From Chloroflexota bacterium (GTDB lineage: Bacteria; Chloroflexota; UBA11872), in assembly GCA_022824495.1 (NCBI GenBank), contig JAJDZU010000006.1, forward strand, positions 186,001-250,000: a stretch of 64,000 nucleotides of DNA, written 5' to 3'. The position numbers were made by a program, and so were the translations under genes. Below the pieces are notes generated by a model, which ran no database searches, was not told the origin of the DNA, and saw nothing but the letters and a program-made list of their open reading frames with translations. Positions 28,039 to 53,957 of the stretch are shown piece after piece. Numbering within the stretch: position 1 is the first letter of the stretch; every line of letters starts with the position of its first letter.

Positions 28039-28113
<75 letters not shown>

Positions 28114-28238
28114 CGCTATTGTAGCGAACCGGCGGGGGCCGGGCGGCATGACTTGTTGGCCGGTGGGGATCGGGCAGCCGGTCTGAACCGAGAAGACGCC
28201 GGGGGATCGGTTTCAGAACGGTCCCGATGACCGGTGAG

Positions 28239-28555
28239 CGTCGGACCGGTCGATAAGCCGCATTCTGTCGTGGGCGGCCATCTATCTTGGACCGGCGTTG
28301 CCGCCGGCCTCGTGCAGCCTACCTGGGACTGGGCGAGCAGCCTGGTGGCGTCCCGACTTGGCCTTGCTTCCGGTAGAGGTTAGCCGTTTCACTCCCGCGC
28401 CCCCGAGGGGGCATGGGCATCGTCACTGTGCCCCTGTTCCGGCCCTTGCCGGCGCGAACCGATTCGGGCGACGGGTGTTACCCGCTACCGCGCTCTGTGA
28501 AGTGCGGACTTTCCTCTCCGGCCGAAGCCGGAGCGGCCGCCTGACCGGCCCGACG
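28239..28555 (-). ncRNA. rnpB: RNase P RNA
   Basis: Minus-strand sequence has the conserved GAGGAAAGTCCGCACTTC and ACAGAGCGCGGTAGCGGG near the 5' end, AAGGCCAAGTCGGG in the middle, and GATAGATGGC plus GACAGAATGCGGCTTA near the 3' end. The ends pair over 13 positions (28543-28555 with 28239-28251). It is the catalytic RNA of tRNA 5' processing. It lies between the 16S gene and tRNA-fMet. Confidence 0.95.
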
Positions 28556-28957
28556 CTCGCGTACATGGTCACACAGCTCGGGTCGTTGGGGAGATTGGTT
28601 GCCTGGAAGCCCCCACCTTCGTCTGGCGAAGGCGCCAGGATTCTCCTTCCCCCAGGAGAGGGGCGGAACCGGCAGCCGCTTGAGGCGATTGACCCCGCAC
28701 ACCCGTGCCTCGGGTTACGCAAAGGTCTCAGGAGCGGGATTGAGAGAGGGCGCACGAATAGATGCAAGCCCAGAGATACAAACATGGCGGTGTTGGCGTG
28801 GGGGCGCCTTAGCAGGGAAAGAGTGAGTGCGAGGTCGTGCCATTCCGGTCGACTCGATGGGTTTGGGTCTGGCGCGGCTGCCGTTCGAAGAACGGCGATC
28901 CACGTGATCGCTCAACCTGGGTGACCTCTCGGCCGAGGCCGAGAGGTGTCATCCCTA
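28556..28957. other. Spacer between 16S rRNA and rnpB
   Basis: About 400 bases without a gene. A perfect 11-bp hairpin at 28924-28947 (ACCTCTCGGCC, loop GA) follows the 16S 3' end and may terminate or process the rRNA; it lacks a T-run. A nested CCTGG/CCTTCG hairpin lies near 28600-28640. No tRNA or 23S gene is present here. Confidence 0.6.
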
Positions 28958-30478
<1,521 letters not shown>

Positions 30479-31369
30479 CAATCTCAACACACGCCCTGGC
30501 GGGCGTGATACAGATCGCAATTACTTCAGGGCCCGGGTGTACCGGAGCCCTGCAGCCACCGAGTCATCCTCGAATCACGTGAATTACTGTCGCGCCAAAC
30601 ACATTGGAATGACACGAGTACTCGCACTCACTCTTCCCCTGTTAAGGTGCCGTCGCGCCCGCACCCGGCCAGTAATGGCCGGTGCGCCACCGGGGCGGCT
30701 GATGAATCAAGCGCCGCCGAAATGCGCGGATGCCTTTTCAGGCAGTCGCCGATCTTAGCACGCCTGGCGGGGCTGTTCCAGGCATATCCCCGACGCGGCG
30801 GCGCGACCAGCCGCGTGTCGGCCAATAGAGCTCGTGTAGCAGCTGCAGGCGACTAGCGGAACGCCCCATGAGCCTGATTGACAGCTGAGAGCCCCATGCT
30901 CGAACGGAGGTAGTGCGAAACCAAGCCGAGCTAAGGTTCTCGGGGAGCACGGTGGACGGCACCCGCACGCGTTTGGGCGCCAAGGGTTGCTGGTGCACGT
31001 GCTGCGGCAAGGATGGCTGGTCGCGGCGACTGCGGAAACTCTGCGAGCCTTGCTTCAGACGGCTATCGGTGGCTCCGGCGCCATCGCCCCGAAGGGCCGA
31101 CCCGCCTCATGGACGGCCTTATGCAATCTCGGTGCATCCGATTCCTGCCCAAGCTTGGATGTTGCTCTGACGCGGCTGCCTGATTCGGCGTCATGGTCGG
31201 CCGTCAGGAGTCGCGAGCAGCCGCGGTTCGCTGTCGGCGCTATTCCTGCGGTCGAATGGCTCTTCAGAGGGAGTGATCAGCAGCGGAAAACGCCTCTCGT
31301 GCTGTCAGACTCGTCGCACTTCAATACAGTGACCGCCGTCGGCGTCCACCGACACCCTTTTAGTAGCAG
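30479..31369. other. 16S leader and gene-poor region
   Basis: About 890 bases without a supportable gene. On the 16S side are two hairpins in the leader: CACGCCC-TGGC-GGGCGTG (30490-30507) and an interrupted 10-bp stem at 30527-30552 (CAGGGC/GCCCTG with CCGG/CCGG inside). They may be rRNA processing stems. The 16S promoter should lie here, but I could not place it. The rest shows nothing. Confidence 0.5.
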
Positions 31370-32982: not shown

Positions 32983-33368
32983 GCCTGACGGAATGTCCAT
33001 AGCTGAGAAGACCAAGGTGCTAGGCTGGGCGGACACCAAGTTTGACGTGACACACCTCGCATCAAGATTGGTGGAGGGAGTCGGCCCAACGAAGCCGGGC
33101 AACCTTCGAGCGAACGCTCGAGAGGGTGCCAATTCCGGTAGCGGAAGCTGCGAGATGCGAGGGTCACCGGCGCGAGGCAGCGCCCCGGGCGGGGCGCGGA
33201 GCGCCAAGGGGTTTGCGACGGAGTGAGAGGCAAACTCTCCCAAGCTGTTCGGCGGCCGATGGCGATGGCCGAGCCCGCGCGTGACGCGGGCGAGCCGGGT
33301 TACCCGGCGATTCGGGTATTCGCCATCCGCTGACATCTTCGTCGGCGCCTCTGCCAAGGATCATTCGC
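32983..33368. other. GC-rich leader region before threonine synthase
   Basis: About 385 bases with several hairpins: TCGAGCG-AA-CGCTCGA near 33107, a GC-rich cluster at about 33175-33215, and GCCCGCG-CGTGA-CGCGGGC near 33275. It could be a structured leader for thrC, but I recognise no riboswitch or T-box. Confidence 0.4.
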
Positions 33369-47573: not shown

Positions 47574-48596
47574 GTGCAAGAGCGACTTGACGCCCTGCTG
47601 AGCGCCGCCCGCGCGGAGCTGGCCGCCGCCACGGACGACGCGGCGCTGGAGCAGTGGCGGGTCACGCACCTGGGACGCCGCAGCGAGCTCACCGGCCTGC
47701 TGCGTTCGGTCGGCAGCCTGCCGCGCGAGGAACGGCGCGAAGCCGGCCAGGCGGCCAACGCCGCGCGACGCGAGTTCGAGTCGGCGTTCGAGGCCCGCCA
47801 GGCGGAGCTGCGGCGCGGCGCCGACGGCGCGCAGGTGGACGTGACCATGCCCGGCTACCCGGTGCGCCTGGGCAGCCTGCATCCGCTGACTCGAACGCTG
47901 CGGGAGATTCGCCGGGTGTTGGCGCCCCTGGGCTTCCGGGCCGTCAGCGGGCCCGAAGTGGAGTGGGACCGCTACAACTTCGAATTGCTGAACATCCCGG
48001 CGGACCACCCGGCGCGGGACATGTGGGACACGTTCCACATTGACGACAAGGCCCGGCCGGGGGAGCTGTTGCTGCGAACTCACACGTCGCCGGTTCAGGC
48101 GAGAGTGATGGAGCAGATCCAGCCGCCGGTACGGGTGATCGTGCCCGGCAAGGTCTACCGCTACGAGGACCGCGACGCCTCGCACGAAGCCGAGTTCATG
48201 CAGGTGGAGGGCCTGGCCATCGACAAGCACATCACGATGGCCGACCTGCGTGGGACGTTGACCTATTTCGTGCGGGCCATGTTCGGCCCTGACCGCGAAC
48301 TGCGGATTCGGGCCAGCTACTTCCCGTTCACGGAGCCCAGCGCCGAGGCCGAGATGTCCTGCCACGCCTGCAACGGCGACGGCTGCCCGGTGTGCGGCGG
48401 GACCGGCTGGATCGAGATCCTGGGTTCCGGGATGGTCCATCCGAAGGTTCTGGCCGACGTGGGCTACGACCCGGACGTGTACCAGGGTTTCGCCTTCGGC
48501 ATGGGCGTGGAGCGGATCGCCATGCTCAAGTACGGCGTGACCGACATCCGGTCCTTCTACCGCAACGACCTGCGGTTCCTGCGGCAGTTGCGCTGA
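47574..48596 (+). CDS. pheS: Phenylalanyl-tRNA synthetase alpha subunit
   Basis: A 340-residue class II synthetase subunit. The N-terminal coiled coil binds tRNA; motif 2 (KVYRYEDRDASHEAEFMQVEG) and motif 3 (GFAFGMGVERIAMLKYGV) are clear. A four-cysteine cluster (CHACNGDGCPVC) precedes GWIEILGSGMVHP. It starts 7 bases after the methyltransferase and ends 3 bases before pheT. Confidence 0.97.
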   Translation: MQERLDALLSAARAELAAATDDAALEQWRVTHLGRRSELTGLLRSVGSLPREERREAGQAANAARREFESAFEARQAELRRGADGAQVDVTMPGYPVRLGSLHPLTRTLREIRRVLAPLGFRAVSGPEVEWDRYNFELLNIPADHPARDMWDTFHIDDKARPGELLLRTHTSPVQARVMEQIQPPVRVIVPGKVYRYEDRDASHEAEFMQVEGLAIDKHITMADLRGTLTYFVRAMFGPDRELRIRASYFPFTEPSAEAEMSCHACNGDGCPVCGGTGWIEILGSGMVHPKVLADVGYDPDVYQGFAFGMGVERIAMLKYGVTDIRSFYRNDLRFLRQLR

Positions 48597-53009: not shown

Positions 53010-53360
53010 CTACTCCTGGAAGGTGACGCTCGCCGCGTGGAGTTCGTCGGCGCAGGCCTGGTCGATGGGGACGGGGGTGGGGAGGTTGTTTTGCTGGATG
53101 TAGCCCTTGGAGGCCAGCCAGGCTTCGACTTCCTCGCCGCTGACGTCGGCCAGCATGCGGCCGTCCACGACCACGCACGGTGAGAGGGGCTGGCCGCTCC
53201 TGGCGACCATCTCGTAATAGTTGGTCGCTTCGTTGATGATGTCCTTGTCCTCGTAGTCGAGGCTGTACTTGTCGAACACGGCGCGGACGCCGGCGCTCCA
53301 GCCGCAGACGGGCTTGAGGTAGGCGGTGATGTTGGGCTGCTCGGTTGTCATGGGGTTCAC
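53010..53360 (-). CDS. Glutaredoxin-like protein
   Basis: A 116-residue thioredoxin-fold protein. The redox site is CGWS (C19-S22), followed by the family's SPCVVVDGRMLADVSGEEVEAWL, in which the cis-proline loop reads LSPCVVV. It is divergent from the candidate selenoprotein peroxiredoxin about 140 bases away, so it may be its reductant. ATG at 53360 or 53351. Confidence 0.85.
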   Translation of the reverse strand: MNPMTTEQPNITAYLKPVCGWSAGVRAVFDKYSLDYEDKDIINEATNYYEMVARSGQPLSPCVVVDGRMLADVSGEEVEAWLASKGYIQQNNLPTPVPIDQACADELHAASVTFQE

Positions 53361-53498: not shown

Positions 53499-53957
53499 AT
53501 GACGCGACTGAACGTAGGCGACCGATTCCCCGAACTGACGGGGCGCTGGGACGACGGCCGACCGGCCCGCATACCGGACGACCTGGAGGCTGGCCCGGCG
53601 GTGCTGCTGTTCTACCGCGGCCACTGGTGATCGCATTGCCGGCGGCAGTTGGTCGCCTATAGCTACGTGCTGGACGCCTTTGCCGCGCTGGGCGTGCAGG
53701 TGGTGGGCCTGTCGGTCGACTCGGCCGCGGACGCCGCGGCGACGCGCGAGCGCTTGCAGGTGGACGTGCCGCTGGTGGGCGAGCTTGCCTACCCGGAGTC
53801 GGTGGACGCGCTGGGGGCGTACCGAAACGAGGATCGGCAGTCGCACCAGGCCAGCGCGTTCGTGCTGGACTCTGACCGCCGCGTGGAGCACGCGGTGTAC
53901 AGCGCCACCAACGTCGGGCGGCTGATGCCCGCAGAGGTGCTGCGGATCCTCAGCTAG
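53499..53957 (+). CDS. Peroxiredoxin-like protein with in-frame UGA (candidate selenoprotein)
   Basis: A 152-residue AhpC/TSA-family protein if the TGA at 53628-53630 is read through. Before it lies VLLFYRGHW, and after it SHCRRQLVAYSYVLDAF, so codon 44 occupies exactly the position of the peroxidatic cysteine in the usual WCPxCRxQL motif. Cysteine 47 remains. The rest (VQVVGLSVDSAADAA, SAFVLDSDRRV) is intact. Just after the UGA, 53641-53657 folds into GGCGGC-AGTTG-GTCGCC, a hairpin with GU in the loop at a distance typical of bacterial SECIS elements. GGAGAGG lies nine bases before ATG 53499. Alternative: a recent nonsense mutation. Confidence 0.75.
53641..53657 (+). promoter_or_regulatory. 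Candidate SECIS hairpin
   Basis: Six-base-pair stem GGCGGC/GTCGCC (one G-U pair) with loop AGUUG, starting 10 bases after the UGA. Bacterial SelB needs such a hairpin with a GU-containing apical loop close downstream of the Sec codon. Confidence 0.5.

Follow-up and report, generated by a model that had tools for sequence, protein, structure and literature searches.

The window, by which we mean the whole stretch of 64,000 nucleotides that was analysed, belongs to a Chloroflexota genome (G000; 3.37 Mb in 25 contigs, 93.5% complete) and carries a peroxiredoxin-like gene crossed by an in-frame TGA. The features at the locus are the following.

53010..53351, minus strand: glutaredoxin-like protein with a CGWS site, divergent neighbour (PF00462, E 1.3e-8)
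53499..53957, plus strand: predicted selenoprotein gene of the Prx-like UxxC kind, coding for 152 residues, of which residue 44 would be Sec
53628..53630, plus strand: predicted Sec44 codon, an in-frame TGA, first residue of UxxC; TGA in all 34 close-family copies read, Cys in some relatives
53637..53639, plus strand: Cys47 codon, second residue of UxxC; in alignments, the counterpart of the peroxidatic Cys in canonical peroxiredoxins
53641..53657, plus strand: SECIS-like hairpin in which 53641-53646 pair with 53652-53657 around the loop AGUUG (53647-53651)

The frame at 53499-53957 (+) opens with ATG, reads MTRLNVGDRFPELTGRWDDGRPARIPDDLEAGPAVLLFYRGHW-TGA-SHCRRQLVAYSY... and closes with a TAG stop at 53955-53957; upstream of the ATG lies GGAGAGG, ending nine bases before the start codon. 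Ordinary gene calling would end the protein at residue 43. When the TGA is translated as a residue, the Redoxin profile matches with 38.1 bits (cut-off, 26.6) and the AhpC-TSA profile PF00578 with 66.9 bits (cut-off, 26) over residues 6-131, spanning the TGA, which bears out the claim of an earlier note, made from the letters alone, that a peroxiredoxin-like frame continues in register across it. The active-site stretch of the product is FYRGHW-U-SHCRRQL, and the family register that the same note had given, RGHW-C-x-x-C-R-x-Q-L, is indeed present in a Cys-containing relative, L069 (FYRGHWCPFCRQQL). The predicted model has a mean pLDDT of 89.9 and places residue 44 just before a helix at 45-56, and the 50 PDB entries listed as structure matches are all peroxiredoxin, AhpC or Bcp, with TM scores of 0.73-0.84 by query length.

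The glutaredoxin-like gene at 53010-53351 is the sole PF00462 match in G000 (E 0.001). It was present at 23 of 23 same-family loci tested, in both clades of the family described below, and so was a gene of the malate/lactate dehydrogenase type that flanks the opposite end; the count includes some single records from two collections. Neither neighbour is found at L068, L069, L070, L075 or L076, five loci with short flanks. Judged from this neighborhood, the glutaredoxin is a possible reductant or partner of the peroxiredoxin-like protein. Elsewhere in the window, a SAM riboswitch (RF00162, 71 bits) lies at 33056-33161 (+), and a tRNA-Met, a class A RNase P RNA and a 16S rRNA lie close together at 28039-30479 (-).

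Conservation of the TGA codon and its Cys counterparts

To see how the TGA codon is kept among relatives, homologues were collected at the level of class and phylum. Matches to the peroxiredoxin-like protein are present in 38 of 41 class genomes. Nineteen matches, in 18 of the 41, reach at least 62% identity (12 at 92-99% and 7 at 62-64%), and every one of these has exactly one TGA and no other stop. Pooled from two genome collections (18 + 16, partly the same records), 34 close-family copies representing 19 distinct DNA sequences all have TGA at codon 44. They form two clades, A and B, which are about 63% identical in protein. The 16 named copies come from Chloroflexi or Chloroflexota MAGs, and some of the isolate names, which are the sole basis for this, hint at sponge hosts. 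Among the literature matches listed, a set whose coverage leaves out most subscription journals, no title dealt with selenoproteins of sponge Chloroflexota. One isolate, jk18x1bzbins.9, has a copy from each clade, L064 from clade B and L030/L059 from clade A; the latter lies on a small contig (5690 bases) and may be a binning contaminant.

Constraint on the protein extends past the TGA. By the Nei-Gojobori method, dN/dS is 0.126 before and 0.076 after the TGA in clade A (12 sequences, 66 pairs), and 0.148 before and 0.198 after in clade B (7 sequences, 21 pairs). Past the TGA, the sites that vary fall mostly at third codon positions (10/4/52 at first, second and third positions in clade A; 26/15/57 in clade B). 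These values indicate that the protein downstream of the TGA is under purifying selection. A pseudogene, in which a nonsense mutation had struck a Cys-type peroxiredoxin gene, would account for a frame interrupted by a stop under the ordinary code, but not for a TGA at the same codon in 34 of 34 copies, 19 of them distinct, across two clades so far apart, nor for dN/dS of 0.08-0.20 beyond it; we give this reading virtually no credence. The earlier note had remarked that a random nonsense mutation would hit this codon only by chance; chance is excluded by the conservation of the TGA in 19/19 class matches and 34/34 assembled copies.

The alternation of Cys and Sec codons that the note had suggested looking for among homologues is also seen. 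In a phylum sample of 400 genomes, 67 had a match at E 1e-8, and 12 new loci were read: six (L069-L074) have Cys at the aligned codon, as WCPFC, WCPYC or WCSYC, whereas the other six (L075-L080) have TGA, as FYRGDW-TGA-[PS]YC. Plasmid homologues in Deinococcus aetherius and Lichenihabitans psoromatis, two taken from 49 matching records, likewise have Cys, so that Cys homologues exist for the predicted Sec position. A further copy, L068, from a Deltaproteobacteria MAG, has W-TGA-SHCRRQL and is 40% identical after the TGA.

In a tree of 28 rows, the six Chloroflexota W-U-SHC rows form one clade (97/96), which joins seven rows, six with Cys plus L068 (98/97), apart from the WUPYC rows. L068 itself has a long branch (1.62) and is placed with the Cys rows, away from the Chloroflexota W-U-SHC copies; its Sec codon may therefore have a separate origin. 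The Sec label changes at least twice on the tree by the starred branches and three times in the best tree, where the placement of L068 is unsure.

Decoding machinery and the selenoproteins of the genome

A Sec reading of the TGA calls on selA, selB, selD and a tRNA-Sec with a UCA anticodon, as the earlier note had pointed out, and G000 has them all, so that the lack of machinery which the note named as a refutation does not apply. Against curated cut-offs of 268, 242 and 125 bits, selA scores 517, selB 342 and selD 371, and the tRNA-Sec scores 71 bits (gathering threshold, 47) with anticodon TCA by ARAGORN, which marks G000 as a Sec-decoding organism. The selD gene (L010 1501-2427, -) has a single in-frame TGA of its own, in the stretch GAG-U-ACKL, which we take to be the SelD active site; SelD of G000 is thus probably itself a selenoprotein. 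Across the class, 39 of 41 genomes have a selA match above its cut-off. The two that lack one, G023 and G029, have four Prx matches between them and no TGA in any, a small sample. The presence of selA does not predict Sec in the AhpC-TSA fold, because many selA genomes have TGA-free matches.

PF00578 matches at 14 places in G000, and in seven of these a single in-frame TGA interrupts the active-site motif: six UxxC (FYRAFW-U-GTC, FVRHTW-U-LSC, FLRHTW-U-PNC, FYRGHW-U-SHC, DFWTFC-U-INC and FLAHW-U-PHC) and one TPGU (ALTPG-U). Besides the gene studied here they are:

L083, L085, L086, L087, L093 and L094, on G000 contigs C4, C3, C16, C3, C16 and C7, respectively: six further AhpC-TSA genes with TGA

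From its sequence, L087 looks like a canonical TPGU Sec-peroxiredoxin. The survey of TGA genes in G000 covered PF00578, PF00462 and PF02627 and yields at least eight, selD included; the CMD/AhpD-like family has no match in G000. Within the window, a scan for TGAs that have coding signal in frame before and after them, which left out those flanked by short frames, returned eight, and by eye none besides 53628 looks like a Sec site. A relative has a cluster of predicted Sec redoxin genes, in which some 3 kb contain three Prx-like matches, all with a single TGA (G003:C11:506518-509641).

The same data bear on whether UGA might instead be reassigned throughout the genome, for instance to Trp, or read through at a low level. 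Read-through products would show similar conservation, but the TGAs of the seven AhpC-TSA genes and selD all lie in redox motifs (one family and selD having been read), the Trp directly before the TGA of our gene is encoded by TGG, and the genome has tRNA-Sec, selA, selB and selD. In addition, TGA also appears to serve as an ordinary stop, because the TGA at 48594 closes a frame of 342 codons and is followed six bases later by an 840-aa open reading frame. Reassignment or low-level read-through is accordingly very improbable.

Selenoprotein-rich organisms are described in PMC5029168 as those with six or more selenoprotein genes, and 78.3% of those then known are given there as anaerobes. Because its at least eight TGA genes exceed that definition, the G000 lineage would count as selenoprotein-rich. 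A COX1-type oxidase in G000 makes aerobic respiration likely, and a selenoprotein-rich genome with such an oxidase would be the less usual case by those figures. Ordinary gene calling would misread at least seven more G000 genes, six redoxins and selD.

A SECIS-like hairpin after the UGA

The earlier note had also drawn attention to a short hairpin with GU in its loop 10 bases after the UGA, and this element holds up at 53641-53657. It begins 10 nt after the UGA and has a stem of 6 bp (GGCGGC/GUCGCC) with an isolated stem energy of -8.8 kcal/mol; the distance from the UGA to the loop is 16 nt. According to the Fig. 2 legend of PMC13188914, bacterial SECIS elements have a loop of 3-9 nt with G in the first two positions, a stem of 4-16 bp, a spacing of 16-37 nt and an energy of at most -7.5. 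Applied by hand, the hairpin falls within all four of these limits (AGUUG, 6 bp, 16 nt, -8.8 kcal/mol).

Support comes from comparison between sequences, on which the case for the hairpin rests because the single-sequence fold of 53625-53680 is unremarkable (z -0.83). When 20 copies (15 distinct rows) are aligned without gaps, 96.7% of the cells of the stem are paired and two of the six pairs are changed on both sides, one being GC in clade A and CG in clade B and the other varying among GC, GU and AU. Among 500 shuffles, which ignore relatedness, none reached the paired cells, the double-change cells or the covariation score, whereas 172 reached the number of pairs with a double change and 448 the number of pair types, so that these two measures are not exceptional. 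Versions of the stem slid along the alignment all score far lower. The covariation consists mainly of one change between the clades and one variable pair, that is, of few events. The loop is AGUUG, but AGUUA in three rows, and L068 has GCCGCC AGUU GGCGGC; its 4-nt loop sits in a gap-free alignment, and it therefore scores three unpaired cells.

Other folds were considered and set aside. In the single-sequence minimum-energy fold the UGA is enclosed within a long stem; 89.0% of its cells are paired, but none of its pairs is changed on both sides and two do not form in clade B rows. The lower stems of the RNAalifold consensus lie mostly on nearly invariant columns and are not claimed.

A simple hairpin of at least -7.6 in strength follows the TGA in six of the eight TGA genes of G000 (selD and the seven redoxins), although in two of these the loop is only 13 nt from the UGA, below the limit, and one lacks G at the loop start; a good simple hairpin is absent from L094 and selD. 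Ten Cys genes tested, six of G000 and four of relatives, have no hairpin below -3.9. The distant TGA relatives L075-L080 have weak simple hairpins (-2.3 to -4.0 kcal/mol).

Taken with the machinery, the conserved TGA, the Cys/Sec alternation and the constraint downstream, the covarying hairpin lends strong support to the reading of UGA 53628-53630 as Sec, the decoding that the earlier note had proposed for this organism.

Active-site register, class and likely mechanism

Where the Sec stands within the active site is a separate matter, and here the earlier note holds in part. Its prediction of Sec decoding stands, but it had placed the UGA exactly at the peroxidatic position, the site known from Sec-peroxiredoxins, and the alignments put it elsewhere. 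In a phmmer comparison with the PDB peroxiredoxins 5xbs and 6q5v (the two alignments shown of 22 matches), Cys47 is matched to the peroxidatic Cys, and the Thr of TxxC is matched to residue 44. MAFFT and HMM alignments agree, with Cys47 at the peroxidatic site against TPGC (L081), SPTC (L084) and TGTC (L044), and they give the same register against the TGA-type TPGU (L087) and TGGU (L043). Residue 44 thus corresponds to the Thr of PxxxTxxC, three residues before Cys47. In place of the PxxxTxxU signature the protein has RxxxUxxC, and its W-U-S-H-C carries UxxC where TxxC or TxxU would stand. No NCBIfam model matches the 53499-53957 protein above cut-off, PrxU (NF040737) giving 19 bits against 270 and the SelL-related redox protein NF040769 giving 25.7 bits against 120.

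If the protein were a canonical Sec-peroxiredoxin, its Sec would be the peroxidatic residue. In favor of this are the peroxiredoxin fold and the higher reactivity that Sec would have over its partner Cys under any name; however, PxxxTxxC is absent, and both PDB peroxiredoxins and the TPGC, SPTC and TPGU proteins of the same genome set residue 44 on Thr and Cys47 on the peroxidatic Cys. We consider this assignment unlikely. Because the UGA aligns at Thr and Cys47 at the peroxidatic Cys, the protein is better placed in the UxxC Prx-like class than with TxxU Sec-peroxiredoxins. That class has been described: the 2005 Sargasso Sea study (PMC1088965) sets a Prx-like selenoprotein with UXXC apart from the TXXU Sec-peroxiredoxin, Table 2 of PMC2398784 gives Prx-like 1 (pfam00578, UxxC) with 225 sequences, and a Prx-like thiol:disulfide oxidoreductase is a related description in PMC13188914. 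By motif and alignment, then, the predicted protein belongs to an already known kind of selenoprotein, the Prx-like UxxC kind, and not to the TxxU Sec-peroxiredoxins.

We are highly confident that the gene encodes a 152-residue selenoprotein of this Prx-like UxxC kind, with a thioredoxin/peroxiredoxin fold, UGA read as Sec and a proposed Sec44/Cys47 mechanism. The conserved UGA, the constraint after it, the machinery, the Cys/Sec alternation, the hairpin covariation and the fold are borne out at the level of sequence; Sec insertion itself is inferred, as are the steps of catalysis, what the protein acts on and what reduces it. As suggested by the anatomy of the hairpin and the machinery of the genome, SelB and Sec-tRNA(Sec) would bind the hairpin at 53641-53657, and the ribosome would insert selenocysteine at UGA 53628-53630. 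Sec44, at the N-terminal end of the first active-site helix, would attack a peroxide or a disulfide, and resolution would fall to Cys47, a turn further along the helix, giving a Sec44-Cys47 selenenylsulfide. This could be reduced by glutaredoxin or thioredoxin, with the neighboring glutaredoxin as the first candidate.

A broader proposal is possible, though we hold it tentatively and rather doubt it: that Sec is obligatory in the W-U-SHC-RRQL proteins, which would act as peroxidases whose attacking chalcogen has come to lie one helical turn N-ward, at the Thr position, with the old peroxidatic Cys resolving, and that they serve an aerobic antioxidant defense rich in selenium. The Chloroflexota family concerned, whose members are perhaps symbionts of sponges, would then have Sec in roughly every second AhpC-TSA protein. 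Whatever their role, UxxC and TxxU proteins in one genome, with Cys relatives near, would offer a clean set for judging the benefit of Sec at either peroxiredoxin site.

The closest known systems are the Prx-like UxxC selenoproteins, which our protein resembles in its AhpC/TSA fold, in having Sec first and Cys second in a CxxC arrangement, in the existence of Cys homologues and in a function that is unproven. The Chloroflexota W-U-SHC-RRQL clade, which is likened to the published Prx-like UxxC proteins by description, differs in having TGA in every copy seen and Cys-type neighbors in the tree. The hairpin can be set beside the SECIS of E. coli K-12 fdhF, which presumably has the 5' arm GGUUGC and the loop AGGUCU. 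There, 11 nt follow the UGA, against 10 nt here, and the spacing from UGA to loop is 17, against 16 here; both have a 6-nt 5' arm and G and U in the loop, whereas the letters of loop and stem differ, as does the enzyme. The TxxU Sec-peroxiredoxin (PrxU, NF040737), finally, shares the peroxiredoxin fold and an active-site Sec with the protein predicted here, but its Sec lies three residues later.
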